The notes below the pieces were generated by a model. The model was given only the letters and a program-made list of their open reading frames with translations. It ran no database searches and was not told where the DNA came from. The position numbers were made by a program, and so were the translations under genes. From Thuidium tamariscinum (Eukaryota > Streptophyta > Bryopsida > Hypnales > Thuidiaceae): a stretch of 64,000 nucleotides of DNA. Location: NCBI GenBank assembly GCA_947034885.2, contig OX344753.2, positions 4,650,001 through 4,714,000 on the forward strand, read 5' to 3'. How positions within the stretch are numbered: position 1 is the first letter of the stretch; every line of letters begins with the position of its first letter. Of the stretch, positions 3,101 through 64,000 are shown piece after piece.

Positions 3101-3198
3101 AATGGGCAATTCAAGCGGGCAGTGGGGTAGCTCTGGGATTGGCTGTCGTTGGTGTGATATACTGGTTCGGTAGCCGGAGATCCAGGAGGAGATTGTGA
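119..3198 (+). CDS. Monodehydroascorbate reductase, peroxisomal membrane (MDAR4) type, 5' end outside window
   Basis: FAD enzyme that uses NAD(P)H to reduce the monodehydroascorbate radical to ascorbate. Exons I can join in frame: 119-170, 280-360, 818-936, 1203-1428, 1740-1858, 2452-3198 (447 residues in the window). Seen: PYERPALSKGYLL, PARLPAFHTCVG, GIELVLGTRV, the NAD-binding GGGYIGMECAA, MVFPEDYCMPRLFTP, the FAD-contacting SVYAVGDVAAFP and FYSRVFTLSWQFFGD. The N-terminal FAD GxGxxG exon lies upstream of base 1. The last exon ends with a hydrophobic segment of about 20 residues followed by SRRSRRRL, as in the tail-anchored MDAR4 subtype that detoxifies peroxide at the peroxisomal membrane; cytosolic and plastid forms lack it. 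Introns carry local duplications (separate entries). Family assignment is strong; the location rests on the tail. Confidence 0.93.
410..745 (+). repeat. Dispersed repeat in an MDHAR intron (copy 1)
   Basis: This intronic stretch aligns, with substantial divergence, to 37080-37400 in the first intron of the NAD+ synthetase gene, in the same absolute orientation. Shared blocks include CATATGTAGG, GAGATCAG, TGTAGACCACAA, CGTGCTTACAC (here CATGCTTACAC), a block reading TTGCTGTTG followed by CAGG and GTCAGTCAA, and CCAAACGG/CCCAACGG near the end. No terminal inverted repeat or coding potential was seen. Confidence 0.55.
1843..1998 (+). repeat. Local duplication of an MDHAR exon-intron junction
   Basis: The junction after exon 1740-1858 (GATTCCGGCAAG|GTACCACTAT, then GCCGCCACTAT) recurs as degraded copies in the intron at about 1901-1927 (GATTCTAGCAAGGAACCACT) and 1948-1998 (GATGAATCCGGCAAGGTATC, then GCTGCCACTAT). 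The third copy keeps an AAG|GTATCA context that resembles a donor site. Confidence 0.7.
2121..2432 (+). repeat. 161-bp tandem duplication inside an MDHAR intron
   Basis: The segment beginning at 2121 (TGGTGGGAGTATGTCGTAG) is repeated from 2282 with offset 161; both end in a motif like TTGCA(A/G)CCATG(C/T)TGAAC. The pair lies just 5' of the last exon acceptor (exon starts 2452). The whole stretch is open in the frame of the final exon, so a 358-codon reading frame runs 2122-3198, but residues before V(TAVILKDG) match no MDHAR sequence and are read as intron. Confidence 0.75.
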
Positions 3199-12206: not shown

Positions 12207-12463
12207 GCTTGGACTTCTTCTCTCTATCTCTCTCTTTGATCACACTACATCACCATCACCATCTCCCTCTTCATCTTCATCTCTCTCGCTGCTAGGGTTT
12301 CCAACGAAACGCCAAGATCGCCATTCTCCTCCATTCTCGTCCTCCGTTCAAAAACATGCTTTCAAAAACAAGCTCCTCGCGCACCATGTGACACCGCTAA
12401 ACCAGTGAAGAAACGAATCTCGACGTGAACTCGAGCTCCGCAATCTGGACCTGTGCTGCAATA
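12207..12463. promoter_or_regulatory. CT-rich leader/promoter region between divergent frames, with telo-box
   Basis: Plus strand is rich in TCTCTC tracts (12100-12120, 12217-12235, 12270-12290) and contains GCTAGGGTTTCC at about 12291-12302, the complement of the telo-box AAACCCTA common near plant transcription starts. It serves as 5' region of the minus-strand F-box gene; the CT-rich orientation would also suit a plus-strand leader. No TATA box stands out. Confidence 0.45.
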
Positions 12464-26603: not shown

Positions 26604-27826
26604 AATTTGAATGGAGTCGTGCTTGTCTACTATGAAAGGATTGCCTCTGTGTTCTTGTGATTGAGATTGACTCCAAAGTGACTAGAGAATGACTCAAAAG
26701 AGAACCAAAGTCTTGTTGTAGTTTAGGATATGTTAAAGAGAAGTCTACAAGGACTAGCCAAAAATTGTAGGTAGAAACAACTTAATAAAACTTAGGAGCT
26801 TTAGTATTATTATTTACATTTTCTTGTCATAATTTTTTCCCCCTTTTTTCTTATTCTTTCCTTTTCTCTACGCATGCTCTTCAATTTCTCTCTTTCTATA
26901 TACTAGATTGTTTCTAGCTTTTGCATTTGTGTGATATTCCTTTTTCTTCTTGTTTTTTTTGTTTTCTATTTAGGCGTCTCTCACTTTTCTATACCAAATT
27001 CTATTTATCTTTTTCATTTCATTTGGTTTTTTTCCCTTCAAAATTTTTATTTTGTTTTATTTCAATCTTATCTTTTTTCAATGATAATGTTAATAAATTT
27101 ATTCTACCTTTTGTGATTGTTGTCATTTGCTAACGATTCTTCTTTTAATGTTGAAGCTTATGGCTTCTTTATTTTTGTAGTTTTGCCTTCATGTTCCTTG
27201 TTTTATCATTGTTTCCTTCATCTTCTTGAACATTTACGTTCTTATTCCTACTTCTTTTTCTTTCTAAAGAGAGTGGTGCATTCCTAGTGGATTGATTCAT
27301 TTTGAATTCAATTGGTACATACTCTTCTATAATTGCACAAATTTTCCTATATGGGAGAGTTTAATCTTGTATGAGTATGGGAGCAATGATTCCTAAAATT
27401 CTTGTCATGGCCATTAGACAACTTTGAAACACTTCATATGCTTTAAATTTTCATTAGTCATGGTCCCAACTTGAAGATGTGAAGGAATTTCAAAGGAATA
27501 TTCCAATTGGGTCAACTACAACACTAATTTAGCAATCCTTTGAAACTAATTTAGCATTCCTACAACACTAATAGAGCAAAGGCTAGCTATGACTTCCACC
27601 TAATTAGACTTAGTCAAGTAGAAGTTGCACTATAGTACCGCATTAGAATAATAATGCAAAAACAACTATGTCACGTCTTCTGCACTATTAGGTTCAAGAG
27701 AAAAATTGATAGAAAATGTCAAAGGCAATACCTTTTGCAATCCCTTTTTCAAATTTGTCTACAACTTTTGATTTGAGGCTCAAAATTTTAAAGAATTTTT
27801 TGAGATGAAAGTAAGATTGACTTTCT
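26604..27826. other. Intergenic, T-rich plus strand
   Basis: 26820-27240 is strongly pyrimidine-rich on the plus strand, which makes open frames without meaning. No gene or defined repeat found. Confidence 0.5.
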
Positions 27827-28558
27827 GAGTCGTTGCAAGAAACACCGTGCAAAAAGCGTAGCGTTTTCAATGGTACTCTTTTTTTTTTCCAGGAGTACTT
27901 TAAAATTAGAAAAACAAGTTTTAAAAAAATTGAAAAATATGTTTCATGTATAAACCTATAAGAAGAAGCTACCCTAGAAAGGAAAGGCATAGGAAAAATC
28001 TCTAAGTAGGAAATCCAGAAAAGTGCAAAATCTCATGAAAATTAGTATTTCCACATTTTAATTTGTAAAAAATAGGAAAATCAATTTTAAGAAAAACTAA
28101 AAATTTTCCATTTGAGGAAAGTTGATTTTGATGAGATTTGACCAAAAGATCGATCTTAAAACCATTACCATTGTTCAAAAATTGCGTGCCAAAAAAAAAA
28201 TTTGTACTCATGTGGAGGACATAAAAAAACATATTTTTAAATTTTTTTTGGAATTTGTAGGTTTTACACCTATGCAAATAGACCATGAAAGTTTCATCAT
28301 CAAATCATTAAATTTAGACACTGCGAACGTAATGGTAACCATAAACATATTTATGTGACAGCTCAACGGAAATGTTTTTTAAATATAAAATGATTTTTTT
28401 TAATTTCTGAAAAATGAGGGATCTAATAAAATTCAAGTTAGGTATGTTCAATAAAAATTTCATGTTCATTGGACTTAACCTCCAAAAGTTATAGTGGAAA
28501 ACAAAAAAGTGGTTCGTGGTGTGACGCGAAATAGTACCGGTGTTTCTTGCAATGACCC
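27827..28558 (+). mobile_element. 732-bp TIR element, family 1, copy 2
   Basis: Ends GAGTCGTTGCAAGAAACACC and GGTGTTTCTTGCAATGACCC; interior collinear with 5778-6505, including GGGAGTAC-type blocks and ATGTTTCATGTATAAACCT. Non-coding. Confidence 0.8.
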
Positions 28559-28744
28559 TTCCAACTTTTACAAGTCCAATGTTTTTTGAAAAAAGTTGCT
28601 CTAAAACATTACTTGTGGCACAATTCATATGTTTTACATATCTTGCATAGTTTATCTTGCCTCCCACCACCCCACTAATATGAAAGGCTTGTCATTTCAA
28701 CTCTTTGTACTCACTCACTAAGTGGCTTTAGAAGCTATGAAACT

Positions 28745-41560: not shown

Positions 41561-43098
41561 TTAACCCCTAAATGCCCAAGCCTTTTCAAGTGTATTTTGA
41601 CTATGGAAAAAATACATGGACTTGTAGTCATCTCTAATGAAGCAAGTTGATTTTTTTCAAAATCTAACCGTAGGGTGAATGCAAGAAAGACTTGTACTAT
41701 TTGGCGTCACACTTTGAGTGACGGAGTTGTCATGAGCTATAACTTTTGAAGCATTAACTCTTTGAACTTGAAATTTTTATTGAAGATGGCTGACTTGATA
41801 GTTATCAAAACCCTTATTTTTCAGAAATTTTCAAAAATCATTTTATATTTAAATTCTAATTTCTCTAATTTGTCACACTTTGCGGTTTAGGGTTTTTTAG
41901 TACTGGGGAGTACTTTAAATTAATAATTTCTATTACTACACTAAGTAGACATGTTTCTACCAAAGGAAATTTAAAAAATCATTATTCTTTTTCTTCTACA
42001 TGTGTGCTAACAGGCCTCCCTTGCGCGCACATTTTTGAACAATCAAGATAGTTTTTGCATCATTATTTTGTTGAAATATCTTTACTATAAAGTCTTCCCA
42101 AATGTACAATTTTTAGTTTTAAGAAAAATTACTTTCCCTATTTTTTACAAATTAAAATGTGAAACTATAGTGAAAGTTATAATTTTCACGAAATTCAGCA
42201 CTTTTCTAGTTCTCCTACTTAGAGAATTTTTCTATGCTTTTCCTTCCTAGGGTATCTTCTTCTTAAAGGTATATACATCAAACATATTTTTCACTTTTTT
42301 TTAAAATTGATTTACTATTTATATAGTACTCCCAAAGAAAAAAGTGAGTACTATGCTAAACGCTACACCTTTCAGCAGGTCTTTCTTGCAATGACCCTGT
42401 ACAAATGTTTTAAGAATTTGTTTATCATTAAGTACACAAATTTTGAGTGCAAAATTGTATAGGAGTTGTGAGATTATAATGAGAAAAGAGTATATTTTCT
42501 ATATTTAGTATACTATCTTTTTCCACAATATTTTCTAAATTTGCATATACATTTTTTTGGAGATTGGAGGTGACATAAACAACTCCATAGAGTGTTAGCA
42601 CACTAAAATATACTTCTAAAAAACTTGATTTCACATGAAAAGCTATTAAACTCATTACACAATCCACTTTGCAATTGCTAAAATGCAATTATTTTTTATA
42701 AGTAGAAATTGCAAATAGCTCCAAATCAATAGTTGTATGTTAAAATTTTCAATAGTGAAAATCACTAAAACACTTTACACTTTCTATTGGAACCATTTTC
42801 AAAGCAATTGGATATGTACAATTTCTTAGATCTCAAATCAAGTGAAATTGCTAAACGCTAGGAAATGAAGTAAAATTGGCAAGCTTTACTCTTCACTTTT
42901 GGTACATGTATGCCTTTGAAGACCTCTCAATAATCAAATATGTACTTTTTTCAATAAAAAATGAAAGTTTTCAATAGTTAACCCTTAAAACTGCCCGAAT
43001 TTTTTTTTAAACGGTCAAAGGAATTTAATTGCCCGCTCAGAATTGGGCCTGGAATTTTAGATTGACCATATATGATCGGCTAGGCAGTTAGGGGTTAA
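41561..43098. mobile_element. TTAA-flanked element interrupted by a family-1 copy
   Basis: TTAACCCCTAAATGCCCAAG at the left and GGCAGTTAGGGGTTAA at the right are inverted copies. The outer flanks ACAATGAGAC and ACATACAATGAAACTTAGAC look like one interrupted tandem stretch. A smaller TTAA-bounded unit 42978-43098 (TTAACCCTTAAAACTGCCCG ... same right end) is an alternative reading. The family-1 element at 41674-42397 splits CTAACCGTA from TGTAC, joined (CTAACCGTAGGATCTTGTAC) on the complement of about 30325-30345. Confidence 0.6.
41674..42397 (-). mobile_element. 724-bp TIR element, family 1, copy 3 (inverted, nested)
   Basis: Ends GGGTGAATGCAAGAAAGAC and TCTTTCTTGCAATGACCC; body is the inverse of 5778-6505, with blocks such as GCTATAACTTTTG and GAAATTTTTATTGAA. 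More diverged than copies 1 and 2. Confidence 0.75.
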
Positions 43099-47468: not shown

Positions 47469-48028
47469 TCTGCTTGTTTCTAATTGCAACAAATCTTGGG
47501 GCTTCGTACACACCTAGTTGATGAATGAGGAATGCTGGTATGTGAGCAGGGAGCGGTGAGAGGGGAGCAGGAAAAAGTGAGCATGGAGCAGGGATTTTAG
47601 GAAAAAAGACCTACCTAATCCTATTACCGTGGAAAAGGGTACCTAAAATCGTGTAATTAGTTTGTTCCAAAAATATTAAATTTGAATTTTTTTCAATCCA
47701 ATTCTAATCTAAAGCCATGGAATTTTGGAAGCTTAGATCTATAGCTATATGATATAAGCATTATGATCATGTAATTTCAAACATTTAAAGTTCTCTACAA
47801 GAGCAAAGAATAGAGATAAGAGAACCAAAAATGATTTATTAAAGTTTAATTTATGAAATTTAAGAGACCCTATTACCGTATAATTTTCATAAAAATTTAA
47901 TTTGTATTAAAACGGGCATGTAAAGCCGTGGATTGTTAAGGAAATTTGGATACCTAATAAAATGATGGTTTCTAGTTTTAATAAAAATAGAAGGAAATCT
48001 ATGACCATGGATTTTTGTCATTTAAGAC

Positions 48029-48280
48029 ATTAGATGTTTTTTGGGGCATTTAGAAGGCTAACATTGTTGAGAGATTATCATGCTAGATTTTACTATATTT
48101 TAATTAATTATTAATTTAAAAAAATCAGTTTTTTGTTTCATAACTTTCTGATTTTTTTTTTTTTTTTTTTTTTTTTTTCCTTCAAAAAATTCAGACCAGC
48201 AGTCGGTGGTTCATTGCACAGTGAACAGTTTTAGGGAAGAACCCTGAAATAGTCTCCTACGGAGCAAAAAAACATCTAAT
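48029..48280 (+). mobile_element. 252-bp TIR element, family 4, second copy
   Basis: Ends ATTAGATGTTTTTT and AAAAAAACATCTAAT. The right interior TTCAGACCAGCAGTCGG, AACAGTTTTAGGGAA and CCCTGAAATAGTCTCCT matches the element at 22622-22975. The two copies have different but internally matched terminal repeats. Confidence 0.75.
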
Positions 48281-48747
48281 ACTTATAATGGAAAGACCAA
48301 GTAGCTTAAAGAAATTGAATGAAAAACTATAATACTACAATACCACTCAAAAAAAGACATATATAGTTATGGCATAATATTGCAACCATTAAAGTTATAA
48401 GCAATTGTGAATCGTTTAGAAACAAATCTTTTGTTGTTTAAATTCACACAATGAGAAATTGAATACTCACCAAGATAAGAAGATACAATAAGTTTAAATA
48501 TGTGGGTCACTTGGATATAGCATTCAACATTTAGAACACACAATCAAATGCCTGTATAATATATGATAAAGTAAATGCCATAAAACTGGAGGGCAATTTA
48601 GAGCCACAATAGTGAAATACACTGAAAAATGAAAACCACTCAAAGACCACCACTAGAGCTACAGTCACTAAAGGTTGAACCTTCAATCTCAAATTCCTCT
48701 CTTTGATCTGCCTATATATCCAAGAACTCCTTTACCTTTGGATCATA

Positions 48748-51700
48748 TCAAAGCTTTTGTCGATTCACTATTGGAGATGGAGCATCAACATATGCTTGAG
48801 CAATCCTCTCTGTATAAACCGGGAGAATGAAATTGAAAGGCGGACTCTGCTCATTTGCATCTTGTACTTGCTCTACTACAGTGTCTCTGCAAGACAAGAA
48901 AAAAAGGTTAGTAAAATACAATGTAATTCAAATATTCTTATAAAATGAAAAATGGTGACTTAACAAATGAATCACAACTTACGCACAAGAGATGAATCAA
49001 TTCCTCTTTGGCTTCTTTGTAGGTGGCTGATCAAGCAGTGGGGTAGTGGCTCTATCCTTGGTTGTAGAAATAGAGGCTGCAACAGGGGCAAACGGGGCAA
49101 TCATAGCCTTGAAAATGAGAGGATCATCTTCTAATGCTAAGATGTGCCGTCTAGTCTCCAAACAAGCCTTGATGGATGAACCTGTTGGAAAACAAAAAAT
49201 ATATGAATAAATTATGAAAAATCAGCTCCAAAGAATGATGAATAGAACTTAAAATTGTAGAAGAAAAAAAATACCTGTTGTAGCTTTGCAATCAAGGACA
49301 ATATCTCCAGGCTTGCAAAATTGTAGGATGAGATCTCGCATAAAGAGTAAGTTCTTCTCACGTGGACCTCTCCATGGAATTTTCTCATTCATAGAAAGGC
49401 TTTCAATATCCGTAAGATTGAAGAGAGCATCATTTTTCTCTAAAGGCTCACCATCATAAGAAGAATCACGATTTTCTTGGAATGAAAACCGTGAAGGAAT
49501 CTCCCGCCAAATAAACAATTGAATCCAAAATCGAACAGACTGCAAACATTGAAAAGTTGAATATTAGAAAGAACTGTATCTCAGAAATTACAATATCAAG
49601 AGAGCTACAGAAATTTCAGAAATCACAATGTCAAGGGAATTACAAAAATTTCAGAAATCACAATGTCAAATAAATCATCAAAACAAAGGACTTTGTAAGT
49701 CTATTTTAGGATAGACTTTCTATAACTTTCTACAAACTACTCACAAACTAAAACTTACAATGTCAAAGAAAATTTCAGAAATTACAATGTCAAGGAAATC
49801 ACAAATATTACAATGTTAAGGAAATTACAAAAATTTCAGAAATCACAATGTCAAAGAAATCACAAAAATGAAGGACTTCAAAGTTAAGGGTAGAGTAGAC
49901 TTTCTATAAATTCCTACAAACTAAAATGTACAATGTCAAAGAAATAATAGAAATTACAATGTCAAGGGAATTACAAAAATTTCAGAAATCACATAAATTT
50001 CAATGTCAAGGGAATTACAGAAAATTTCAGAAATCACAATGTCAAAGAAGTCACATAAACTTTTTCATTTATCGTTAATGATGGATCCCGTGCAGATGCA
50101 AGATGTAGCTCATTGATTCCCCACCAATCTTTGGCCAACTTCATATCATACTGGTCGGCCAACTCATCAACTTCTTTTAGCAATCTTCGATCATCACAAT
50201 GTATGAGTAGGAGGGCACCATCATCATGCAAATACATATCAGCCATCTCAAAGAGAGTCTCAACATAATTCTCTTTGCGCGCATTCCACTCTGGAATTGA
50301 AGTTGAAAGACCTGGAACAGGTAGATTCTCTGGAATGTCTGCAATGATCAAATCAAGTCCTGTATGCTTGTATTCTTTGCAAAAGTCGGATGTGACAGTA
50401 CGATTGCGAGTAGCACTAATCTGCACATTTCATACATGTAAAGTTAGAATTAAAACCTTCAAAGCAATGCCATAAAAGATGAAATGTTGGAATTAAGTTG
50501 AGAATACAATACCTTAGCTATAGTGTCATGCAACCTTATCCATCGAGGATCAGGGCCAGTGGACTCTTGTAAACTATTCAAGAGAGTGATGAGAGAAGTG
50601 CACTCTACAAAGACATGAAGAGAGTCTTTAGGCTCTATCATTGAAGAGCTGGTTGAAGGGAACATGAATCGTTTCTTCTTTCGAATTCGATTACCAGTGG
50701 CATGAATAACATTCGATAAAGAAGAATCTGGAGCAGCAGGTGCAAGGCCATCATCATGGCCTTGGTCTGACATGGGGGTAGTCTCATGACTCTGTGAAGG
50801 CGCGGCTACAAGCTCATTTGCTTGAGACTTCTGTCTTTCGGCTTCTTCTTTCTCTGCCTTCTCTTTCTCCGCCTTCTCTTTGGCCACCCTCTCCATCTCT
50901 TCCTTCTCCTTCTTTGTGAGCCGCTTTTTCTTTGGTGCCTTCTCTTGTGGTTGATTGACTTCTTCTGCATCGTTAGGGTCAAGAATAGCAAGTTGTCCAC
51001 CATCAAAAGCTGTCCTCTCTGCAACCTCTGAGTCAGGGGTGTAATTCCAATGACAATCAAGGTACCACCCTCCCGCTTCCAAATGTGTAGCTTTGAACTT
51101 CTTCAATTGCTCAAATGTAAACATACAAAGATCAGAGTCTTTTTGCAACCAAGAAAGGAAAAAGGGTGGTACAGCTTCTGCTGAAATTGCATTTTTGGGA
51201 AGTAGAACCCGCATAAAGTACCTGAAGTCAAGGAGACAAATGTCATGATTGGCAAGTAATTCATGAATGAAAACAATAAGAACAAACAAAGCATTTTCAT
51301 CAACTTTTAGAAGTAAAGGTAACAAATAGGAACAAAAAAAAAGAAACAATAGAAACTACATAATAAAATATTAAAGCAAGTAGATAAGTGCAATAGCATG
51401 ATAGTACCTGTATACAATACGTCTCATTGCACTCTCTGCTCCAGGGAACTCTTTAAATACAGACTTCTTTGTATAGAGTTTCTGATCTTTGTTTCCAAAG
51501 AACGAGATAAATGCTTTGTCCCAAAGCAAAATGTGCCAACTCTCCATATAATCAGAGGGCATTCGAACACCTTGTATGGTCCAATCTACGACAATGTTTT
51601 CATCTTTGCAAATGTTTGTAACCATCTTAACAACTGCCTCCTCCATCTATTAAAATGAAATGAAGAATGTTAAAAATACAATAAAATGAAATCATAATAA

Positions 51701-54700
51701 GTGCAAGAAAGAAATGATTTGCGGTCACAATACAATACCTCAGTCCAAAAAGATGCTTTATTGATCCAAGAATCCCAAAAGAGGTCTTTATCCTTGGACC
51801 CTGGAAAGCGATAAGATTGTTGAACCGTCAAAGATGCATTCCACCACCTTAACCACCGTGCCTTGTGTTTTGCTTCAATGTTAGCGGTGGCAATTTTTTG
51901 AAGCTTTTCAATCGTCATTTCAGGATTTGGATATTCACTGAAGTGTCTATCAATCTGAGCACATAAAAACATTTATATTAGATTGAAATGATGCAATGTA
52001 TAGATAAATTCAGAGATTACAAGTTTAAATGGAATACAAATGAACTCATACCTCTTTGAGAAAATCATTTCCGTTCTTTGGATTTGCCACCGCTAGGTAT
52101 TTGTCAAAGTCTTTGGCATGAACAGCCTTGATAAACTTGTCTGAGGCATTTTTCATTGCTTCCCAAATGCCTGGAGCAGTCCTTTCTTGGAGTGGTGTCC
52201 GCATCGTGTACTCTTGAGCTGCTTCATCGGCAGCCAATGCAATCTCCCGCTACAATTGAAAATTACAAAAATTACAATGTCAAAGGAAATTTCAGGAATT
52301 ACAATGTGAAAGAAATCATAGAATTGACAATGTTCATAGAATAACAAAAATTTCAGAAATTACAATGTCAAAGACACTACAGAAATTACAATGTCACAAG
52401 AATTACAAAAGATTTCAGAAATCACAATGTCAAAGAAATCATATAAATAGAGGACTTCAAAATTTATTATAGAATAGACTTTCTATAAACTAAAACTTAC
52501 AATGCCAAAGGAACTACAAAAATTTCAAAAATCACATTGTCTAGAGAACTACAAAAATTTCAGAAATCACACTATCAAGGGAACTACAACAATTTCAGAA
52601 ATCACATTGTCAAGAAAACTACAAAAATCTTAGGAATCACATTGTCAAGGGAACTACAAAAATTTCAGAAATCACACTATCAAGGGAACTACAAAAATTT
52701 CAGAAACTACACTATCAATGGAACTACAAAAATTTCAGAAACCACACTATGAAGGGAACTACAAAAATTTCAGAAATCACACTATCAAAGGAACTACAGA
52801 AATTTCAGAAATCACACTATCAAGGGAACTACAAAAATCTTAGGAATCACATTGTCAAGGGAACTACAAAAATTTCAAAAATCACACTATCAATGGAACT
52901 ACAAAAATTTCAGAAACTACACTATCAAAGGAACTACAAAAATTTCAGAAATCACACTATCAATGGAACTACAAAAATTTCAGAAATCACACTATCAAGG
53001 GAACTACAAAAATCTTAGGAATCACATTGTCAAGGGAACTACAAAAATTTCAAAAATCACACTATCAAGGGAACTACAAAAATTTCAGAGACCACACTAT
53101 CAAGGGAATTACAAAAATTTCAGAAATCACACTATCAAAGGAACTACAGAAATTTCAGAAATCACACTATCAAGGGAACTACAAAAATTTCAGAAACCAC
53201 AAACTGAAACTTATAATGTCAAAAGAAATTTCAGAAATTACAATGTCAAAAACATCACTGAAATCACAATGTCAAAAAAAATCACAGAAATTACAATGCT
53301 AAAGGATTGTCAAAGATATTACAATATCAAAAGAATGTCAAAGAAATTACAGAAATGACATATAAATGTTGCAAGAAAAACAAATTGGAAATGTGATTGC
53401 ACCTTATACAAAAAGGAGATGAAGACATTGACTGTCAAAGAAAACCAACTCAGTCTCATTGCCTTCACCTTCTCACAATATTCGTACTCTTCAGGAGATA
53501 TAAGGTCCTTGAAATCAGCAAGAGGTAAAACTCCAAAATTTCGAATTCGCCGCAATCGAGCTGGAATTGTGCTCTTCACATGATCATGCTCAGTAGACCT
53601 ACACATTATACAATGCATTTGCATGAGAATGAAATCAAATTTCATGGCAATGAATTCATATTTAGATTCTTCACAAATAAATTTAAATAGAATAAGAAAC
53701 GTACCAGTTAATATCACTCATTGCATTTAACAAGTTTGCCACTTGACCTCTTGGATCCAATATAATGCAATGAACTCGCCAATGCCAATTAAGTTCTATA
53801 GGATGATAGTTGGTGATGTGTCGCATCCATGTCGAGACACGATGATTTCCATCCCACATATAAAACATCTTGCCTCTCAATTGGGCAAGGTCATCATCAA
53901 CCATCAACTCTTTCTCAAACTCCTCATTCACATGTTGCCAATGAGGACTCCACTTTGCAATTTTTTCTTCAGTCACGTCCATAGTTTTTTCGAAATTGTT
54001 GTATGGTGATATATATAGAACCCGATCACCATCTCGATAGCCAGTCATAAACTCACTCTCCAATCTCTGAACATCCATTTCACCAACCGGTCGAACCTTG
54101 TCCATAACAATCATTCGACAAAGAGGTATCTCAAGGCGTGATCTAGAAACTGGTTGGATACGCAATGTGTTGATGAGTCCTGTAGTGTCCACTTTAAGCT
54201 GTTTGCGGTGGAGTTGCTCACTCTCCAATACACTTGTTACATCAACTAGACATTCACATCTTGGTTCATCATCTTCAAGATCAATAGATGCAACCTTCAA
54301 AAAAATGATAGATAAAATGGCATTAGAGAAGAGAGTGATTTACATTTAAAACTTGTTGTTTTGAATAATTGTACATACACAAAGTAATGGAAAGGACATG
54401 AAGTTGAGAACATGTAGAAATTTCATTTACCTCAACAATTGGAGGTGCAACTCTTCCCGTTTCTCCTGTAACAACTCTCTCACCATCATTGTTGTTCTCA
54501 CCTTCTTCCTCCTCGACATATGTGATTTCAGTTTCCTATTCTTCATTCATCTGATTAGTTGAAATCATTGAAGAAAACTTGACATAAATCCTCCATTATT
54601 TATAAATGAAGATGAAAGGAAAATGAACTCATTCTTGATTCTTGTTTACAACATCGTAGTATACAAATAAGACAACACAAATACAACAACATTGACAACT

Positions 54701-55404
54701 GAATTCCTAAATAATCTCAAAGCTCTAAAAAATTTCCACAATGCATATCCAATTTCGTTTGAATTGAAGTAAACGGCTAAAATCAGCTAAAATCAGCTAA
54801 AAACTCATTCTATTAGAAAACTAGAGAAGCTACAAAGAAATCATGAAATGGCATCTTTTCTCAAAATTCAGCCTAAAGTAGTACAAGTTATGGACAGCCT
54901 CGTCAACGAGGACTATATGATTGAGTATAGTTCAAACCAAAACATTGGCATTGATCCAAAGAATGTGCAAATATTGTCCTTCAAATTTTTTTTGTTAAGA
55001 ACAGCCCAACAATCTTAGCATTTTTCAATTAGATTCGAAGTTGTTTTGAGTGTCCTCATCAATGAGGACTCCTCGAAATAGTCGTGTGTAATTCAACCTA
55101 ACGATCTAAACAAAGAATGTATAATTTTAGGTTTTTTTGTCAACGAAGATTTCCCGAAAGGGCTGTAAACAAACCAATGTTGATTAGGGTAGTCGCCGTT
55201 TTGGGTATCCTCGTCAACGAGGACTCCTCAAAACTGCACGCCCCGCAATTGCTGCCCCCCCCCCCCGAAAATACACAAAACTTCGAACTAGAAATGACAG
55301 AGAAAAAATTAGAAGAGAAAACAAACCTCGATGTCTGGCTGAGTGTCTTCTTGCGTTCTATGCGAAGCCACCGCCGAACGCTCTGCAAATTCTCCCTCTT
55401 CCAT
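48748..55404 (-). CDS. ParB/sulfiredoxin-like plus permuted DNA methyltransferase-like fusion protein
   Basis: Exons: 55404-55327, 54535-54431, 54294-53705, 53598-53403, 52249-52052, 51954-51739, 51646-51408, 51221-50513, 50420-50061, 49539-49275, 49181-48997; all junctions keep frame, 1,046 residues to a TGA at 48999-48997. Order: acidic N-terminus (ITYVEEEEGENNND); ParB/Srx-like domain about 62-250 with KMFYMWDGNHRVSTWMRH at 203-220; helical middle, including a Lys/Glu-rich stretch KKRLTKKEKEEMERVAKEK; methyltransferase-like part from about 778 with LDLIIADIPENL (motif IV position, Asp805) followed by ILQFCKPGDIVLDCKATTG and ETRRHILALEDDPLIF (motif I). Order IV then I is the beta class, as in bacterial/phage ParB-methylase fusions (COG1475/COG0863). 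DPPY reads DIPE and FxGxG is eroded, so activity is doubtful. A further in-frame exon (48886-48748) follows a donor 14 bp past the TGA, suggesting loss of about 50 residues. Nuclear function unknown. Confidence 0.7.
49560..50045. repeat. Scattered minisatellite-related units in intron between exons 9 and 10
   Basis: Phrases such as AATTACAAAAATTTCAGAAA and TCACAATGTCAAGG recur about ten times, interrupted by a unique-looking 80-bp block (AAAGGACTTTGTAAGTC) that itself recurs near 49860 and 52440. These are the same words as in the array at 52260-53350. Confidence 0.8.
52260..53350. repeat. 35-bp minisatellite in intron 4 of the ParB-methyltransferase-like gene
   Basis: Core 52500-53205: about twenty head-to-tail copies of a 35-bp unit formed by ATCACACTATCAAGGGAACT followed by ACAAAAATTTCAGAA. 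A variant with AAATCTTAGGAATCACATTG recurs at about 52626, 52836 and 53011, i.e. at intervals of 6 and 5 units. Edges are degenerate. Because 35 is not a multiple of 3 and the unit lacks stops in any plus-strand frame, long frames (up to 168 codons) cross it without being genes. Confidence 0.92.
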
Positions 55405-55456
55405 TTGCAGCAACAATCGCCACAAATCGTACGCAAAAAAGATGCCTCGTCAACGA
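54898..55456. promoter_or_regulatory. Phased 14-bp palindromes in intron 1 and 5' region
   Basis: CCTCGTCAACGAGG (arms CCTCGT/ACGAGG) at 54898-54911 and 55209-55222, a matched variant CCTCATCAATGAGG at 55054-55067, and a partial copy CCTCGTCAACGAGC at 55445-55458 about 40 bp before the start codon. The first three are 156 and 155 bp apart inside a loose tandem repeat that also repeats CAAAGAATGT. The variant keeps near-symmetry, so selection on the palindrome is possible. Confidence 0.6.
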
Positions 55457-56118
55457 GCGATCTTCCTCTGCGCCAAACCCTCAGCAACTTTGACGCACGA
55501 TTGGACTGGTTTGCAATGCTGGCCTCGGGGAAGGAAAAAAAAAGAGTACAAAATTGGTAGATTTAGGTCAGCGCTTTATTTTGAATAGCAAATGTAATTT
55601 TGAGTAATTTGGTTTGAAATTTTTTCATACGTAGATTATAACCTTACAGTTAACTCCAAATTTTTTTAGAATTTTTAGACTCACTACTGATTTTACAAAA
55701 ATCATCAAAGTTCACAAAAAAGTCCACGGGCAAGATTTGCCTAAAAATCTTCTGATTCTGAAGATTTCAGACTAGGTTCCAATCTGCTGAAATCATTTTT
55801 AGGCCATAAAACATTCAATAACCATCCAATTTTTATGTGCCATACACCATTGGAATCGTCTTCTTAAAATACACGAGAAGGTCTTCCCTGTCAAATGAAG
55901 CTCTACCAAAAAAAAATACATACTAATTCAACAAACAACCTAATCATTTTGGTATCTATTCTTCTATACTTTCAAGCATCTTCTGGCTTTGTTATGTAAT
56001 GAACTAGTAAATAAGTACTTAACAAGTGTTCTTCTAAACAAATTCTCACTACATCTTATTTAAAACATCAACTTCAAATGATCAAATAATATGATATACT
56101 TATCAAATTTTGTCTACT

Positions 56119-56478
56119 TTAGGCAGGTTCTTCGCTATCTTCGTCACTCTCGTCCTCGCTCTCGTCCTTACTCTGATCGTCTTCTTCGCCATGTATGTTG
56201 TCCTCATCTCTTTCAACCATAGATATTGGTTCTTCAATAATCTTATCAAGACATGAAATACCGTCACCAACTATGTCGGCTACTTCTTGGTCACCAAAAT
56301 CAAGTGCTTTAGACGTCTCACCATAGCTATGCTTTCCTCTACTTAAAATTTTGGCCCCTCTCATCTTAGCTCTTGATCTGGCCTTCGGAGTTGTGTAATA
56401 TAGTTTGCGTCTTTTTCTCTTCTTTTTTATCAACCTACTTGCAACCTGAGACTTAAGGATCTTGATTTCTTCAAGCAT
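56119..56478 (-). CDS. Unrecognised basic-then-acidic protein, probably nuclear
   Basis: ATG frame of 119 codons: MLEEIKILKSQVASRLIKKK start with a very basic run (KKKRKRRK, a likely nuclear localisation signal), ALDFGDQEVADIVGDGISC in the middle and an acidic tail (DDQSKDESEDESDEDSEEPA). The ATG directly follows GTAGATCAG, an acceptor-like sequence, so this may be a last exon whose upstream exons I could not find in 56480-57690. It lies between the methyltransferase-like gene and the transposase relic, on the strand of the former. No family recognised. Confidence 0.4.
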   Translation of the reverse strand: MLEEIKILKSQVASRLIKKKRKRRKLYYTTPKARSRAKMRGAKILSRGKHSYGETSKALDFGDQEVADIVGDGISCLDKIIEEPISMVERDEDNIHGEEDDQSKDESEDESDEDSEEPA

Positions 56479-57696
56479 CTGATCTACCACACATACATTT
56501 GGAAACAAGCATCACAATAATACCGTCTCTATCACCTCCAAATTATCTATCATTCAACCCTACTAGCTGTAGACATAGTTCTAACAAACATTGAGTCTAA
56601 TTTAAATAATGTTTTTAGCTATTCAAAGCCTTCAAAAATTGACAAAGGTGCATTATTCTCATCTCTCACAAATCTACAATCTTCTTTCACAACAAGAGTA
56701 AAAATCACCTACTGGATGCATAGCTACTGTAACACAAACTCAAAACGCTTTCAAGACCAAAGAAGTATTACAATGATGTCCTACAACTTTAATAAAGATG
56801 GTAAGCAAGATGTACTAACAAGAAAAACTTAAACTCTCTGGCAACGGTAAATGACAATTGTACAAGTCTGAAGTTTATCCAAATTTTGAAATCTGACGGA
56901 TCTGTTATTCTAAATGTTATTTCTTGTATAAATACTCTATCAATCTTCTACTATAACGTAAACCTGCAGGTGGATTTGGCGCTCCCACTACTTAAATGTT
57001 TGTATTTTCTTTGATTCTTTGTTCCTGTTTCATACAAATGACGGCTACTTCTAATGTGGGCCACTTCTAATGTAGGCCACTTCAAACTAAATCTTCACAT
57101 ATATTATATTTCATTTATTTTTAATTCATAATTCATATTTATTATTAAATTAATTAATATTAGACATGTTTATTTTCAAAATCGGATCATCATTAATCTA
57201 ACTATGTTGACCACTTCAAACCAACATCTTAACATATACTATATTTCATTTATTTTTTAATTCATAATTCATAATCATTATTAAATTAATTAACATGAGA
57301 CATGTTTATTTTCATAATTAGATTCTTATTAATCTAATTAATTTATTCAAGTTTATACTATTATTAATAAATTTGGTACTATGTTTTATTGTCTACTATG
57401 TCAGTATGTCAGTATGTCACCATTAGGTGTTTTTAGTTTGCTTCTCTTTTCTAATGAGGTTCTTTTAAGAGATCAAGATTAATGTCACTTCTTGAACTCT
57501 TGTCAGAATTCATCATTGAGAAATTTTCAAACGATTTTCTAACTATTACTAAAGCCGTTGTAAACTACTTCATCATCATATTTGCTAACTACATATTTGT
57601 TTCCAGCACAATCTCTTTCTTTTCAATTCATTTCTTCTGAGTGCAGTATGGACGTAAATTAGAATGGTATCTTCATGAGACTTCAATCTTTAAGCA
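56479..57696. other. Intergenic spacer between divergent genes
   Basis: A direct repeat of about 170 bp is visible: 57060-57185 and 57205-57330 share CTTCA(A/C)ACTAA..., ATATTTCATTTATTTTTAAT, TTCATAATTCATA, AAATTAATTAA and GACATGTTTATTTTCA. No gene seen. Confidence 0.6.
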
Positions 57697-60600
57697 ATGG
57701 TAGACTTTACAGAGATGGCTATTGTAAGGACGAATGGTGAAGGGATTCCAATAACGTTTCTAGTAGGCAAAGATGGATTTGCTGTGGTTTCTACGTTTCG
57801 ATTAAGTCTTAGGTTTCAGTTGAACGAGGACTCACTTTATATTGATGAAGAGGTGTTCGATGATCATAGTGGAGACCTTACTCATACAATTGGTCAAGTC
57901 CCTGTTTCAGATGGTGTTGGTAGATTGTGGCATTTGAAGCCTGGTCAATTTAGGGTGTATGGATTGCGTGAATCCATTATGGTAACTTCTACGAGTGTTT
58001 TTACATCTCGTCAGTCCTCTACGTCCTCTCGTGAAACACCTTTAACAACACGAGTTAAATTAGAGCTTGGTTTGAATGATGTCACCATTCTAAGTGATGA
58101 TTCAGATGACAATTCTCCTAAGCAACTGCAAAGCTCTAAGATTCGATGTCATGAGTCAACTTTACCAAGTTCTAGTACTTTGCCAAGCTCTAGTACATTG
58201 CCAAGCTCTAGTATTTTGCCCAATTCTAGTACTTTGCCCAGCTCGAGTACTTTACCCAGCTCAAGTACTTTACCTAGCTCAAGTACTTTGCCGAGTTCTT
58301 ATGAGCCATTATTTGCCAATCCCTCTAGTAGCAACAAATCTATTACATCTGTCATTGATTGTTTAAGAGAATTGCGTACACTGAAGGAATGTAGAAATGT
58401 CTTGAAAAAAATTGATTATGACACTATTACTATTCATAGAGTGAGCGTATTACCTCCAACTTTCAATGGAGATGTCATTTTTGAGTTTCCACCACTTACT
58501 ACCTCCACTGCTCTATCTCAAGTTAAGCAAATGAGTGGGATGGATAAGCGGTATGATGGGCATGTCTGGTCTAAAACTATTACAACAAATATAACAAATA
58601 CCATGGGATTATCATTCCGTACATCTTCATGTGTAGGACATCTTCAGTGCATCAATCCGGGCTATGAGTTTCTTAGTCGTATTCATCGAACCAAGCCTGT
58701 CAATGAACTAGAATGGGAAGGGTTCACACCATCACTATTTGAAGTAGGAAGTGCACATCCTCAAGGATCAACACTTGTTTGTAAAATATGCAAGCAACCT
58801 CCATCCTGTATTGCTCGATGTTCTGCAAGGGTATATTATGTGTTTGGAAAACAGAACTTCTCTCGTGCATTTATACATCTTGGCATTCATCAACATCCTG
58901 TCAAAGATGGTGAACTTAGAGACATCAAGAAGCGAATCCGTATTTTTATTGGTGAACAAATGGAGAGAACACCAGTTACGACAAACTCTTCAATTGTGTT
59001 GGAGGCTACAAAAGAACTTGTGGGAGAATTATTGCTACGTCCAGATGAAGTTCCAGTGAAGACCCTCAACATTGATGAACTTCTTCCAGTTCTTGACAAG
59101 TGTAAATATTTCAGCTCTCCAAATATTCGAAATGAGGTAACTTCATTCAAATACTTAAGGAGGTTTGGAGTTATGGATAGCATTACAAAATTGAGGGGTA
59201 CAAGCTCTTGGGCATTTGTTCAAGAGAATAAATTTCCAGGTCAAGGATCGGATATGGATAAAGTTTTTGTCTTCAAAATGTCGGAAGTTGGACCCGGTAG
59301 TGGACTAGACTTGGTCAAGCGAATGCAACTCGACGGTGACCTTTAAGATGCTTGGTTAATGTTTGATCATGTTAAACGTGTTAAAGGTTGGACTACCATG
59401 ATATGTCATGTCTACGACTCCATGTATTGTTGTGTTATGACTATTGCCATCTGTGATATGCAATCTGAAGACTGTGCTGCTCAAATTATATTTTGAAAAA
59501 ACTTGAATTCGGTTCTTGCAAGACATGGTGTATCTCACCTTAAATTCAAGGGATTTATGGCTGATAGTGCCCAAGCAAATTGGAATGCTGTGAGGACAAT
59601 CTATGGATCAGGTGACATTCATGTTCCAATGAAAAACCAAGAAAGGACTTGTCTTTTCCATTGGACTCAATCAATGGAAAAGCATACAAAAGCTGATATT
59701 CGATCAGACTTACAAGATCAGCATCGTTTGCTATGCAAATAATACAAGAATGTTATTTCCTCTGAAGAATCAGAAACTCGATATCTTGCCATTAAAGCTT
59801 GGTGGTTATCATCTGGTGCTACGACAGAAGAAGGACTTCATTGATTGGAACTTTGGCTATCGTTCTGGCATTTCCGTTACCACCAATGGGGAGGATTTGA
59901 ACAACTTGTAAGTATCTATTCTTCATCTATTCTATTTCAAATATCTATTTGTTTAAATCTATTTATAGCAAAAAATTCAAAATTTAATTTTATAACCATT
60001 ACTAATCATTTGGACAATGTCAATTTGAAAATGTATGTATAGTATACATGATTTCACTACAATTCTTATAATTACTATAAATAGATCATCAAAGACAGTA
60101 TGGGTTATTATTTATTGCATTATTAATCAAAAAAATTATATTAAATTAGAGACTAATAATCCTTGTCAACAAAGATCATGAAATTTGAATCTTCAATTAT
60201 TTTATTTTTGTAATACTAAAAGTAGACATAATTTAGCATGTCTTGCCACTTCATCAACAACAATGACACAGCTTAACCTCCTTTCCTAGTTTTTTGATAA
60301 AAAAATGACATGAACTAAAAAAGAGGTCTGTTTTCTTTGTCTTTGATGATAGAAAGTTTATTGTCTTTTCTTGATTCATATTATAATTTCCTTCTTACTT
60401 TAATTACTAGTTATACTATCAATATTAATAGTAATAATGTTATACTTACAATACATTTATATTTTTTTCTAACAAAATTTTCATTTTTGATTTCATTGTC
60501 ATTTCAGAATCTGAGTGAATCTGAGCTCGCGGAAATGCCTTCTTGCAATTTAGCCGAAACTGTCCATAACAAGTGGCTTCAACAATCTGGAAATCGAGGA

Positions 60601-61977
60601 AACGATTTATACATTGCCACTGTTGACGACTATGTAAGAGCCTTTATGCAAATGGTCAAGTATTATCAATATCTTAAAGGCGATCAAGCTGGAACAGGAC
60701 CTGGAAAGGAAGAATTGTTACTCCGAGTTGCCCAACGATCAGCGCAACGATCGGGGAATTCAAAGGTGCTCACTGAAGCTATGTTCAACATTCCAGAAGT
60801 GAAAGAATTTCTCAATAGGGAGCCTCGTCTTGAAGGTGAAGAAGTGTTTGGATCACAAAAACGCAAGCCAGATATGCCATTGGGCTATGAATATGATTCA
60901 CACCGCTCGGACAAAGTAAATTTTTCTCATCCACGCATTCAAATGAGGTCGAAGAGAGCCTCCACAAGCACTCAAAATTTGAATCCTATTATTGAAGATG
61001 TTATTCCAACTGCAGATACTGAGATGGAGGATCCGATGACAACTGAGGGAAATTTATGAGAAGGTTTTACTTACAGAGTTCCTCATGTGTCAGCAATTCA
61101 AGAGAGCAACTGTGATGAGTTTCAGTGGCACATTGCAAGGCTTCCTAAATCCTCAGCAAAGGCTTGTTTTGCCCTCCAAGCTATTTCGAAGAAGAAGTGT
61201 ACAGCAAGGATTGTCCAAAGCAATATTGCTACAACAGCATCAACGTATACAGGAATGATGACCAATTATAAGAAAAATCGAAATGAGCAAATGCAATTTT
61301 TCTTTTGCAATGACGACATTGAACGTTGTGTGAAGGGTACAAGTCGGAAGTGGGTGTTGTCAAGACCTAATGTCCCTGCCATATGGCCTGTCAAAATGGG
61401 TACCAATTTGTCAAAGCAAGAGATTTTGGCATTTGAAACTGCTGGCTTTCAGCTTCCACAACGTCAAGTTATTTCACCCCGAAGACTGTTTGGTAAAGAA
61501 GCAGGTTTAGATTTGGTCTCTGCTTATCCTGTTCCATGTATACCAGATGAGCATCCAAAAATTTGGTCAGGGAAAACCATTCGTCGGAATCCAAAGGCGC
61601 CAATAGTAAAACACGCGAACAATTGTGCATCTACAATTACACTAAAGGCATGCATTCGTCGGGTAACAATGGTTCCTCACCCTGGATTTGGTTGCATTGT
61701 TTGCCTTGACTCTGGATTGGAGCCAAAAATTGAACAATATATGCTTACTATTTCATCATTTCCAGAGTGTTCATGTCCATACTTCAAAGAAATGGCTACA
61801 AAGTCATTAGGCAAGCAAGGACAATGGGCAAATTGTAAGCATCTCTATTTTGTTTTTACAATCATTTGCAACCTTGAGTCAGCAATAGATGCCTTCATTC
61901 ATGCCCCAAGTTTCAGTTTCAATGAAGTCAAGAAGATCCTTCTTAGTGGGATATTAAATCATTTAGCTCTAAGTTAG
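57697..61977 (+). pseudogene. MULE-type transposase relic with SWIM zinc finger
   Basis: Two exons, 57697-59907 and 60508-61977, phase 0 across a GTAAGT..TTTCAG intron, 1,226 codons in one frame. Five in-frame stops break it: TAA 59344, TGA 59494, TAA 59740, TGA 59842, TGA 61057; there is no frameshift. Layout: Ser-rich region with TLPSSS repeats; Cys/His cluster CKICKQPPSC...HLGIHQHPV resembling zinc-binding domains ahead of MULE transposases; DDE-type core with GWTTMICHVYDS and GFMADSAQANWNAVRTIYGS, CLFHWTQSMEKHTK and FWHFRYHQWGGFEQL; C-terminal SWIM finger CSCPYF...WANCKHLYFVF. Such enzymes cut and paste Mutator-like DNA transposons. The relic cannot make a full transposase as it stands. 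Superfamily is inferred from motifs. Confidence 0.75.
58156..58302 (+). repeat. 18-bp coding repeat (TLPSSS)n
   Basis: Nine in-frame copies of an 18-bp unit encoding TLPSSS (one ILPNSS variant) in the N-terminal part of the transposase relic. Codons vary between units (TTGCCAAGC, TTACCCAGC, TTTGCCCAG). Confidence 0.9.
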
Positions 61978-62637
61978 ATTTTTTATTGCAAAACAGTATC
62001 AACTTTTGTACCTTCTGTACTCATCAATGTATATGTAGTGAGACTAAAAGGGCTACTACTTCCATTTCACTTTCAACATTGAGATTATTGTATAATTTTT
62101 GTTGTTTTCCTTATACCTATATTTTGCATTATGATTTATTATATTCCATCATTGATATCATGTATTTGTACCTTCATTCTCTTCTAACCATTGTGTTTTG
62201 ATTTTAATTTTTTAGTTTATAATTCAAATTCTCTCATTTCTTTTTGAAACAAAATACACAATCATCAATTCTAAAAATGTCCACGGTAATGGGTCTATTT
62301 GAGATTTATTATATGACACAAAAGCAATTCAATTCAACTCTCAACTTCTTTGGTTTTAAGACAATTTACTTCCACGGTCATAGGCACTGTAGTAGTGAAG
62401 TTACAATTTTGAATGGTATATATTTTGATTTTTACCTTTTTCATCTGTTCTTTTCGTCCATTGTCTTCTATTTTTGCATCCAACTTCATCCATTTCTTCC
62501 ATCTACTTTCATCTATTTTTCATCTACTTTCATCTATTTTCATCCATTTTTTCCATCCACTTTCATCCATTTTCATGCAACTTTATTTTTTTTCATCCCA
62601 AATCAATGCTCACCGCTCACAACTTGCTGCTCACCGC
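61978..62637. other. Pyrimidine-rich spacer
   Basis: 62470-62590 repeats TTTCATCTATTTTCATCCA; 62606-62643 repeats CTCACCGCTCAC. No gene. Confidence 0.6.
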
Positions 62638-64000
62638 TCACCGCTTACGTACTAGCGACGTTGGTTGATGAATGCCTGATTGAGAACCAAAATAAGTGTA
62701 CCATCAAAACCCAGAACCTTGGGCTGCATATACCCAATGTTTGCTACCGGCATAGAAATCACTCCAACCTACGTAGCCACAGTCACTCAATTTTTTGTTA
62801 AATGCACCGTTCAAATATCCTCACAAATCAATCATCTCACAAGTCTGCAACCGCCACAGATGATCGAATCTAGTATTCCCAGAATATGAAACTATGATAA
62901 CCTTGAGAACAAATATAAGTTGAATAGAATACACAGGCGTTTTCTTGAAAAAAACTAAATTGAGAAACAAGCCATGGAACCAACTGTCAAGCCATTAGAT
63001 TCTTCACCTTTTGCTTTGCAATATCCGAATTTGCAAACTTGAATATCCGACCACCAGATACCACCTACCTGCACAGTGCATACTTCCATCCGAGTAATGG
63101 TGCCTAGTGGCATCCACTAATACCATAAATCCAGAACCAAACTCAAAGACGACATTACAAGCGCATAGATCATCAGGAGGAGGTTATAAGAAGTTGAACT
63201 CATGCCAAGTTCCTAACGCCACTCCTAATAAGGACTTACAGAAATTAGAAAGTTAGGATCGGTGGTACATGCATTGTAAACACAAACATGTTAGGTCACA
63301 CAATCACAAGGAGACCAAGTGACCAACATTTGAAACTGTAGGTTTTGAGGAAAAAAAAAGACTTCCAATTCCTGCAAGGTTAGCAACTATGTATTAACAG
63401 ATACATACTCATTCAAAGCCTCAGCATCGCTTCTGTCCAAGCTGTAGACTTGATTCTCTGCATTCAAAATAAGAGTCACATTTGTGATGATAGACTCCAC
63501 AGTAATCCACTTTGAATCTGTTACATTATACTTGAATTTGTATTGGCTAGCTGCTCTTGAATAATATTGTAAGATAACTTCAATACTCGAAACTGTAGCA
63601 CCCTTTTTCCTGGAGTTTCATCACGATTGGCAAGATCCACGGGTTGCTTGATGGATCCCCAGGAGTTGCCACCAGCTCGTCTTCGCATCTTCTGAATGCG
63701 TCCAATCCACCAAGTGCCCTTGTCCACACCTTGTAGTGTTGACGCTGTTCTGTTTGATTTGCCTAATCGACATCTTCCTCTTATTTTAGCTGAGGTTACA
63801 ATTGATGCCCTTGCAATCGTAGAACGTTGCATGAAATAGACTCCCACATCCGAACCAATCCCCACAAAGCATGAATTTGAGCATTGAGTAGCATTTTGGT
63901 AATCCTCACTATTATTGAAGTACAATGATTTCTTCACTCGAGTCAACCTGTCCTTCGAAAGAAAAGGATTACCATTCAATTGCCCTACCAATGTAGACTT
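62638..64000 (-). pseudogene. Degraded gene of unknown family, 5' part beyond window
   Basis: Three exons fit: from beyond 64000 to 63405, 63234-63069 and 62891-62638. Seen: LVGQLNGNPFLSKDRLTRVK, DKGTWWIGRIQKMRRRAG, QPVDLANRDETPGK; then in another frame SSIEVILQYYSRAASQYKFK, TDSKWITVESIITNVTLILN; LLGVALGTWHEFNFL, NVVFEFGSGFMVLVDATRHH; LWRLQTCEMIDL, DCGYVGWSDFYAGSKHWVY. A one-base shift occurs in the A5 run (complement of T run 63604-63608); in-frame stops are TAA 63186-63184, TGA 62823-62821 and TGA 62706-62704. Both splice pairs keep frame (GTATCT..GTAAG and GTAGGT..ATAG). I do not recognise the family; WW- and KW-rich surface suggests a compact domain. Position next to the transposase relic suggests mobile-element origin, which is inference. 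Confidence 0.55.

Follow-up and report, generated by a model that had tools for sequence, protein, structure and literature searches.

A MULE-like DNA transposon family of the moss Thuidium tamariscinum carries a second gene that fuses a DGNHR half with a methyltransferase-like half

We analyzed a 64,000-nucleotide stretch of the genome of the moss Thuidium tamariscinum (assembly GCA_947034885.2, contig OX344753.2, positions 4,650,001 to 4,714,000, forward strand; hereafter the window), which carries a gene with a putative ParB/Srx-like half and a half resembling DNA methyltransferases. An earlier note, made from the sequence of the window alone, had read this gene as a plant nuclear gene that arose by domestication of a ParB-methylase fusion from a phage or bacterium. 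In our analysis, it is the second gene of a two-gene family of DNA transposons that resemble Mutator-like elements (MULEs), and it is transcribed divergently from a transposase-like gene with a SWIM-type end, both genes lying within the same inverted ends. We regard it as almost certain that the gene is cargo of a DNA transposon and not a host gene.

The inverted ends of the element, at positions 47527 and 62663, are imperfect and match over ~70 bp with gaps; initial inverted-repeat searches had not reported them, and they were recovered by gapped alignment. Alignment of 80 bases per end gave a score of 59, which was equalled by 1 of 1991 random window pairs. The 10-bp word GTTGATGAAT directly adjoins both ends. 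Extended to the 11-mer GTTGATGAATG, it has two plus-strand occurrences in the window, which are those at the element borders, and one on the minus strand, near 58894.

We searched the moss's own genome (G000; 363 Mb, 19 contigs) with a 132-amino acid (aa) piece of the ParB-like domain and with the methyltransferase exon; this analysis identified 571 and 550 candidate places, respectively, of which 150 were scored in each case, all significant. The scored ParB-like places comprise 32 with 77–100% identity and 118 with 37–46% identity. Seven close sibling copies were fetched with their flanks. Among the six listed copies, sibling alignments stop 0–17 bases from the predicted element end, where that end is covered (the listed rows leave out C9_16.8 entirely, as well as the start of C4_25.8 and the remainder of C3_13.7). 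Element lengths range from 15,137 to 16,581 bp. Both ends were fetched for seven elements, namely the window element and six siblings (C5_9.0 was left out of the count, its left end not having been fetched), and six of the seven carry their own perfect 10-bp duplication: GTTGATGAAT, ATTCCAAAAT, TAACTGGAAC, CCTCTCCCTC, GTTGGTGTAG, and GAGTTGGACA. The earlier view of a domesticated gene, for which the multi-exon, intron-bearing structure and the two-domain product speak, is contradicted for the window locus, where the gene is repeated, lies within ends with target-site duplications, adjoins a transposase-like gene, and contains stops; we consider domestication hardly credible.

Three transposases, one from C3_13.7 and two from the distant loci described below, align over most of their length. 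Read by eye, all three share an invariant Asp in CHVYDS.YC.VMTIAVCD and in FKGFM.DSAQAN, as well as a SWIM-type CxC...CKH end (CxC...CxH). According to the available excerpt of PMC6446971, MULE duplications measure 8–11 bp, SWIM ends occur in many groups, and several MULEs have acquired additional open reading frames (ORFs). The element has 10-bp duplications (in six of seven elements and in one distant element) and inverted termini that, though imperfect, resemble those of the distant element over the first 20–30 bases. We label it MULE-like, short of a proven MULE. Within the transposase-like gene, an 18-bp coding repeat (TLPSSS units) occupies window positions 58159–58292, and the number of units differs between the window and C3_13.7. 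Beside the sibling copy C5_23.2, a second transposase-like stretch (L010, ~4241–7677), with ~69% DNA identity to the window's transposase-like gene, lies 1.2–4.7 kb beyond the methyltransferase-gene end of that copy; it is probably another element of a related subfamily.

Two loci fetched from the 37–46% group each contain the same head-to-head gene pair, and in both of these loci (2/2 read, of 118 weaker places scored) the two genes have the same order and orientation. Their transposases are 43–45% identical to that of C3_13.7 based on TBLASTN, and their second gene matches, in order, the ParB-like part, the middle region, motif IV, and motif I, with 27–49% aa identity. The middle region, which had been taken for a large new addition, is matched in both distant copies and is therefore an old part of the protein. 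One locus, C6_24.69, was not covered to both ends; the terminus scan concerns C8_4.95 alone. There, the top of 43 flank pairs sharing a 10-bp word was CCTAACTTTC, with the ends CAACGACGCTAGCATGTGAGC and CGGGGATGCTAGTTTGTGAGC, which closely resemble the two window-element termini (the locus being displayed in the opposite orientation). This pair scored 16 with the 10-bp word and 15 in a 9-bp scan, for which 200 shuffles of the flanks gave a median of 10, a 95% point of 13, and a maximum of 15; the window element itself scored 13 (10-bp) and 12 (9-bp) in the same scans. Given that shuffle maximum and the lower scores of the window element, the score alone is not decisive; what persuades us is how closely the putative termini resemble their counterparts on the window element.

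Table 1. Features of the MULE-like element and its two genes, in window coordinates
Feature	Position	Strand	Description or basis
Whole MULE-like DNA transposon copy	47527..62663		15,137 bp; sibling regions ~94–96% DNA identity between ends (six listed copies)
Left target-site duplication GTTGATGAAT	47517..47526		Perfect 10-bp direct repeat flanking the element; 10-bp repeats in the corresponding places of other copies differ in sequence
Left terminal inverted region (GAGGAATGCTGGTATGTGAGC..., GAGCGGTGAG-type subterminal repeats)	47527..47607	+	Gapped inverted match to right end; sibling alignments stop at this border or close to it
Right terminal inverted region (CAACGTCGCTAGTACG... on minus strand)	62587..62663	-	Gapped match; sibling alignments
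Right target-site duplication GTTGATGAAT	62664..62673		Direct repeat
ParB-like/methyltransferase-like gene, 12-exon family model	48712..55404	-	Sibling comparison; premature stops in window copy
Exons 1–4	55404-55327, 54550-54431, 54294-53705, 53598-53403	-	12-exon family model
Exons 5–8	52249-52052, 51954-51739, 51646-51408, 51221-50513	-	12-exon family model
Exons 9–12	50420-50061, 49539-49275, 49181-48983, 48886-48712 (window copy)	-	12-exon family model
Exon 3, ParB/Srx-like domain (putative) with DGNHR	53705..54294	-	73 metagenome relatives; motif conservation
Exon 9, methyltransferase-like first half, ADIPENLPVP at motif IV position	50061..50420	-	Copies and metagenome relatives
Exon 10, methyltransferase-like second half, containing WRGPREK and the first part of motif-I-like DCKA(T/A)TG	49275..49539	-	PF01555, PHROG 3008
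Exon 11, remainder of motif-I-like block and following stretch	48983..49181	-	Gene model, sibling comparison
Intron 4 tandem array	52255..53402		~20 copies of a 35-bp unit (52506-53201), with related shorter units on either side
Intron 9 with related short tandem units	49540..50060		Repeat search
Transposase-like gene, two exons (~57696-59907, 60511-61977)	57696..61977	+	In-frame stops in window copy; open 1220-aa product in C3_13.7

The 11-exon structure first proposed for the ParB-like/methyltransferase-like gene was sound as far as it went: on the minus strand from 55404 to 48997, it has GT-AG at all ten introns and an open product of 1046 residues, in which DGNHR, DIPE, and the motif-I-like DCKATTG stand at residues 209, 805, and 980, in agreement with the earlier note. 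Comparison with siblings replaced it with the 12-exon family model, in which exon 2 starts at 54550, exon 11 extends to 48983, and exon 12 starts at 48886. Because the family model places in-frame stops at codons 31, 1052, and 1103 of the window copy, the window gene is a lightly damaged copy; the gene end previously given, 48748, is consistent with the third of these stops. In the open sibling, 23 further codons follow past the window's exon 12 limit before a stop. AT-rich tandem units of 35 bp and 26–44 bp occupy much of introns 4 and 9 (52506–53201 and 49581–50038), and the tandem arrays possibly account in part for the differences in copy length (15.1–16.6 kb).

The two halves belong to one gene, as had been claimed, at 31 of the 32 close ParB-exon places. 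There, the methyltransferase exon lies 2.9–4.1 kb downstream on the same strand; at the remaining place there is a methyltransferase row at 18.8 kb. Pairing was based on 48/150 ParB rows (all 32 close ones included) and 45/150 methyltransferase rows; the 16 weaker ParB rows were hand-picked, and their 10 pairs give no rate. Three of the entered methyltransferase rows (97, 84, and 58% identity) had no ParB partner.

A database search with the whole protein yielded nothing (7997 candidates scored), probably because the collection consists of exon-sized ORFs; exon-sized queries identified 24 metagenome relatives of the methyltransferase half and 73 of the ParB half. No close relatives were found in viral contigs, searched with both halves, or in GTDB genomes and phage records, both searched only with the ParB half (by TBLASTN for the phage records). 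A bacterial or phage origin of the fusion is plausible. Literature searches on ParB in plants, mosses, or transposons, on ParB-methylases, on MULE accessory genes, and on N6_N4_Mtase in plant transposable elements gave nothing pointing to this pair among the matches listed, from a coverage without most subscription papers or bioRxiv preprints.

Residues 778–1046 alone (the C-terminal 269) match Pfam N6_N4_Mtase (PF01555) with 29.2 bits (cut-off 26.7, E 1.1e-6), so the likeness of this half to methyltransferases is more than chance. The score stayed below the cut-off for the whole protein, at 24.7 bits, for the open sibling, at 25.5, and for a distant copy, at 20.6. The same 269 residues match PHROG 3008, “DNA methyltransferase” (E 3.7e-7); the best PDB match of this half is a weak one to DpnA (5hfj, E 0.029), and PDB hits of the methyltransferase alignment were judged to be chance. 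Motif IV precedes motif I in the product, which is the permuted (beta) order. The earlier note was right that an intron-containing plant gene fuses a DGNHR domain with an amino-methyltransferase-like domain of permuted order.

The motif IV position reads DIPEN in 8/8 copies and in 21/24 metagenome relatives, DLPEN in the other 3, and DVPEG and EYPDG in the two distant genomic loci. The catalytic motif [DNS]PP[YFW] is missing from every sequence read (8 copies, 24 relatives, and 2 distant loci), and its replacement, [DE]-[ILVY]-P-[ED], retains the second proline and has an acid at the aromatic position. Motif I is DCKATTG in the window and DCKAATG in six of seven siblings; it was not found in C2_42.4, where a stop occurs at that place. 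Three of the 24 relatives do not contain motif I; one of the other 21 lacks the Asp, and one the last Gly.

The beta-class N6/N4 amino-methyltransferases of PF01555 (DpnA, CcrM) likewise have motif IV ahead of motif I, whereas the element protein differs from them in its catalytic motif position and in a PF01555 score near the cut-off. Bdelloid N4CMT and a Marchantia N4-methylcytosine (4mC) methyltransferase are also eukaryotic proteins with a bacterial-type amino-methyltransferase domain; however, N4CMT has the catalytic SPPY, is active, and is described in the available part of PMC8885841 as a horizontally transferred bacterial-type animal gene, not a transposon gene. The same source reports that changing the Ser and Tyr of SPPY to Ala abolished N4CMT activity; by this analogy, ordinary methyl transfer by the element protein is doubtful. 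This result also argues against active DNA modification, in which an S-adenosylmethionine (SAM)-dependent amino-methyltransferase, or a changed D-x-P-E chemistry, would mark element DNA (with 4mC, N6-methyladenine, or another mark) to shield it or to time transposition. We consider this improbable: the PF01555 match, the largely kept motif I, the conservation of the replacement motif itself, and 4mC deposited by a bacterial-origin enzyme in Marchantia spermiogenesis (cited in the PMC8885841 excerpt) favor it, whereas the first proline and the aromatic residue of motif IV are absent throughout, one distant locus having Tyr at the first-proline position.

In the other half, DGNHR is present in all eight copies. 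The 73 relatives have [DE]GNHR in 51 cases and variants in 7, and the motif is missing in 15 (107–215 aa long); an alignment of 50 members, made up of the window and 49 of these relatives, has N and H in all 50 and G and R in 48 each. Judged by eye, the order of strands and helices appears to fit that of the superfamily, beta-alpha-beta-beta(motif)-alpha-beta with the GxHR-type motif before a helix. No ParB/Srx match was found in Pfam (with one member and with 50 members), PHROGs, NCBIfam, or a PDB profile search. With a fitting motif and an order that fits by eye, yet no profile match, the ParB/Srx label is a lead. Weak Pfam hits of the 50 members to unrelated families were judged to be chance; in one distant copy, the GNHR stretch hit DUF1015 below threshold (E 0.003, 17.0 bits, cut-off 25.8).

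A pattern for the IVDGNHR-type stretch matched four viral stretches. In one of them, on the reverse strand of L036 (4527–4552), IVDGNHRLA lies within a 1937-aa viral ORF in a setting that looks ParB-like by eye; this ORF is possibly a polyvalent protein. A follow-up scan on the viral stretch returned only the L036 locus again, and because of this single locus, a ParB profile for comparison could not be built. Bacterial and phage ParB-methylase fusions (Bce_0392, polyvalent proteins) share with the element protein a ParB-like part, an amino-methyltransferase-like part, and a GNHR-type motif; in contrast to them, the element gene has introns, a long middle region, and a motif IV other than [DNS]PP[YFW] (Bce_0392 was compared by its description in the available text).

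Taken as a whole, the locus is best explained, with good likelihood, by a transposon second gene whose product is a trans-acting accessory factor on element DNA. This product would act in trans on the intron arrays of 35-bp and related units and on GAGCGGTGAGC-type subterminal repeats, as candidate targets. The fold of the methyltransferase-like half is probably still of Rossmann type, and SAM binding (D-x-[KNT]-A-x-x-G) may persist; since [DNS]PP[YFW] has become [DE]-[ILVY]-P-[ED], ordinary amino-methyl transfer is probably lost, and the half may instead recognize DNA or the repeat arrays that the element carries. The DGNHR half may be a ParB/Srx-type nucleotide (NTP)-dependent DNA-handling module, either a clamp or a nickase. 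The net effect would be escape of the element from host silencing, as with VANC, or help in transposition.

Of these two roles, countering host silencing appears the likelier, although we propose it tentatively and by analogy with VANC of the VANDAL MULEs. According to PMC10398659, VANC induces the loss of silent marks and binds its own VANDAL copies in noncoding regions that contain tandem repeats. The noncoding tandem arrays of the moss element recall these targets and may themselves be binding sites. The VANDAL MULEs of Arabidopsis are similarly plant elements of MULE type with a transposase and an additional gene, noncoding tandem repeats, and an 8–11 bp duplication; unlike the moss protein, VANC is described there, in the text available for comparison, as a sequence-specific DNA-binding anti-silencing protein, without mention of a ParB-like or methyltransferase-like part.

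An aid to excision or integration is the next likeliest role, and is rather unlikely. As a transposition cofactor, the protein would bind the element ends at their GAGCGGTGAGC-type subterminal repeats, and the DGNHR domain would nick or clamp DNA. The GNHR motif is conserved, the gene is kept alongside the transposase in 2/2 distant loci read, and nonspecific nicking activity is reported for the ParB domain of Bce_0392, a ParB-methylase of Bacillus cereus (PMC5512222); against this stands a ParB/Srx membership that none of the profile searches matched. Less likely again, and speculative, is a fuller version of the accessory-factor explanation, in which a ParB-methylase-type conflict protein was taken up by a plant transposon lineage, its methyltransferase turned into a DNA-acting module (with a conserved acid replacing the catalytic aromatic residue) and joined to an NTP-dependent ParB-like motor or nickase. 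Such a protein might recognize the element's own repeats and strip or overwrite host silencing marks, making a self-versus-host epigenetic system from prokaryotic defence parts.

Several observations weigh against a MULE-like element with a functional accessory gene, besides the missing ParB/Srx match. In Pfam, the transposase gave no MULE domain match, and its SWIM hit was sub-threshold (E 0.84). One of the seven elements with both ends fetched, C2_42.4, has no target-site duplication. Seven of the eight copies of the gene are damaged by stops or splice changes. It may also be that the repeat arrays are inert. Pairwise mismatch among seven copies (C5_9.0 left out) is 0.0202 in exons, 0.0119 in introns without arrays, and 0.0189 in intergenic DNA, and for the transposase it is 0.0217 in exons and 0.0205 in the intron; the expectation of slower exon than intron divergence in the young subfamily was tested and failed. 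Because exons diverge no slower than noncoding parts, the young copies look largely neutrally decaying.

The same divergence pattern and the damage to most copies would suit a passenger gene, captured once and carried without function. We think this quite improbable, as the same architecture and key motifs recur in the two distant loci despite their low aa identity, and dN/dS (the ratio of nonsynonymous to synonymous rates) is below 1: pairwise values were 0.46–0.63 in 15 pairs, from six copies with equal coding-sequence length (two copies of differing length were excluded). Under the 12-exon model, C3_13.7 alone of the eight copies has no internal stop and no changed splice site, and it is open for both genes. 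The six other siblings have one to nine stops each; two also have a changed donor, one of these together with a frame change, and another copy has an in-frame deletion. The window copy differs by CpG to TpG/CpA at 15/89 CpG sites of the majority sequence, as would be expected of a methylated, silenced copy.

Additional MULE genes are already known, and VANC at least lets its element escape silencing; the moss family carries a quite different candidate, with domains otherwise of bacterial and phage conflict systems and a conserved non-standard catalytic motif. Other eukaryotic DNA transposons bear genes for epigenetic-type enzymes: based on the available excerpt of PMC12730594, fungal DNA transposons carry TET/JBP dioxygenases, and MuDR/Harbinger elements occur with SET domains. 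These differ from the moss element in enzyme class and host group. With ~30 close copies in one genome, the moss family offers a way to test whether plant transposons turn DNA-modification parts of prokaryotic type against host methylation. It also cautions that transposon cargo may pass for “domesticated” multi-exon plant genes of this type.

Elsewhere in the window, an open F-box/LRR gene (10797–12236, minus strand; Pfam LRR_At5g56370 and F-box) is plant-type and has no evident introns. On the plus strand, positions 2095–3195 hold the C-terminal part of a gene like that of monodehydroascorbate reductase 3. Both are ordinary plant genes and identify the window as DNA of a plant. Three copies of another repeat, ~73–91% alike, are located at 5772–6507, 27821–28560, and 41672–42395, two of them direct and one inverted; as far as examined, this repeat is unrelated to the element.

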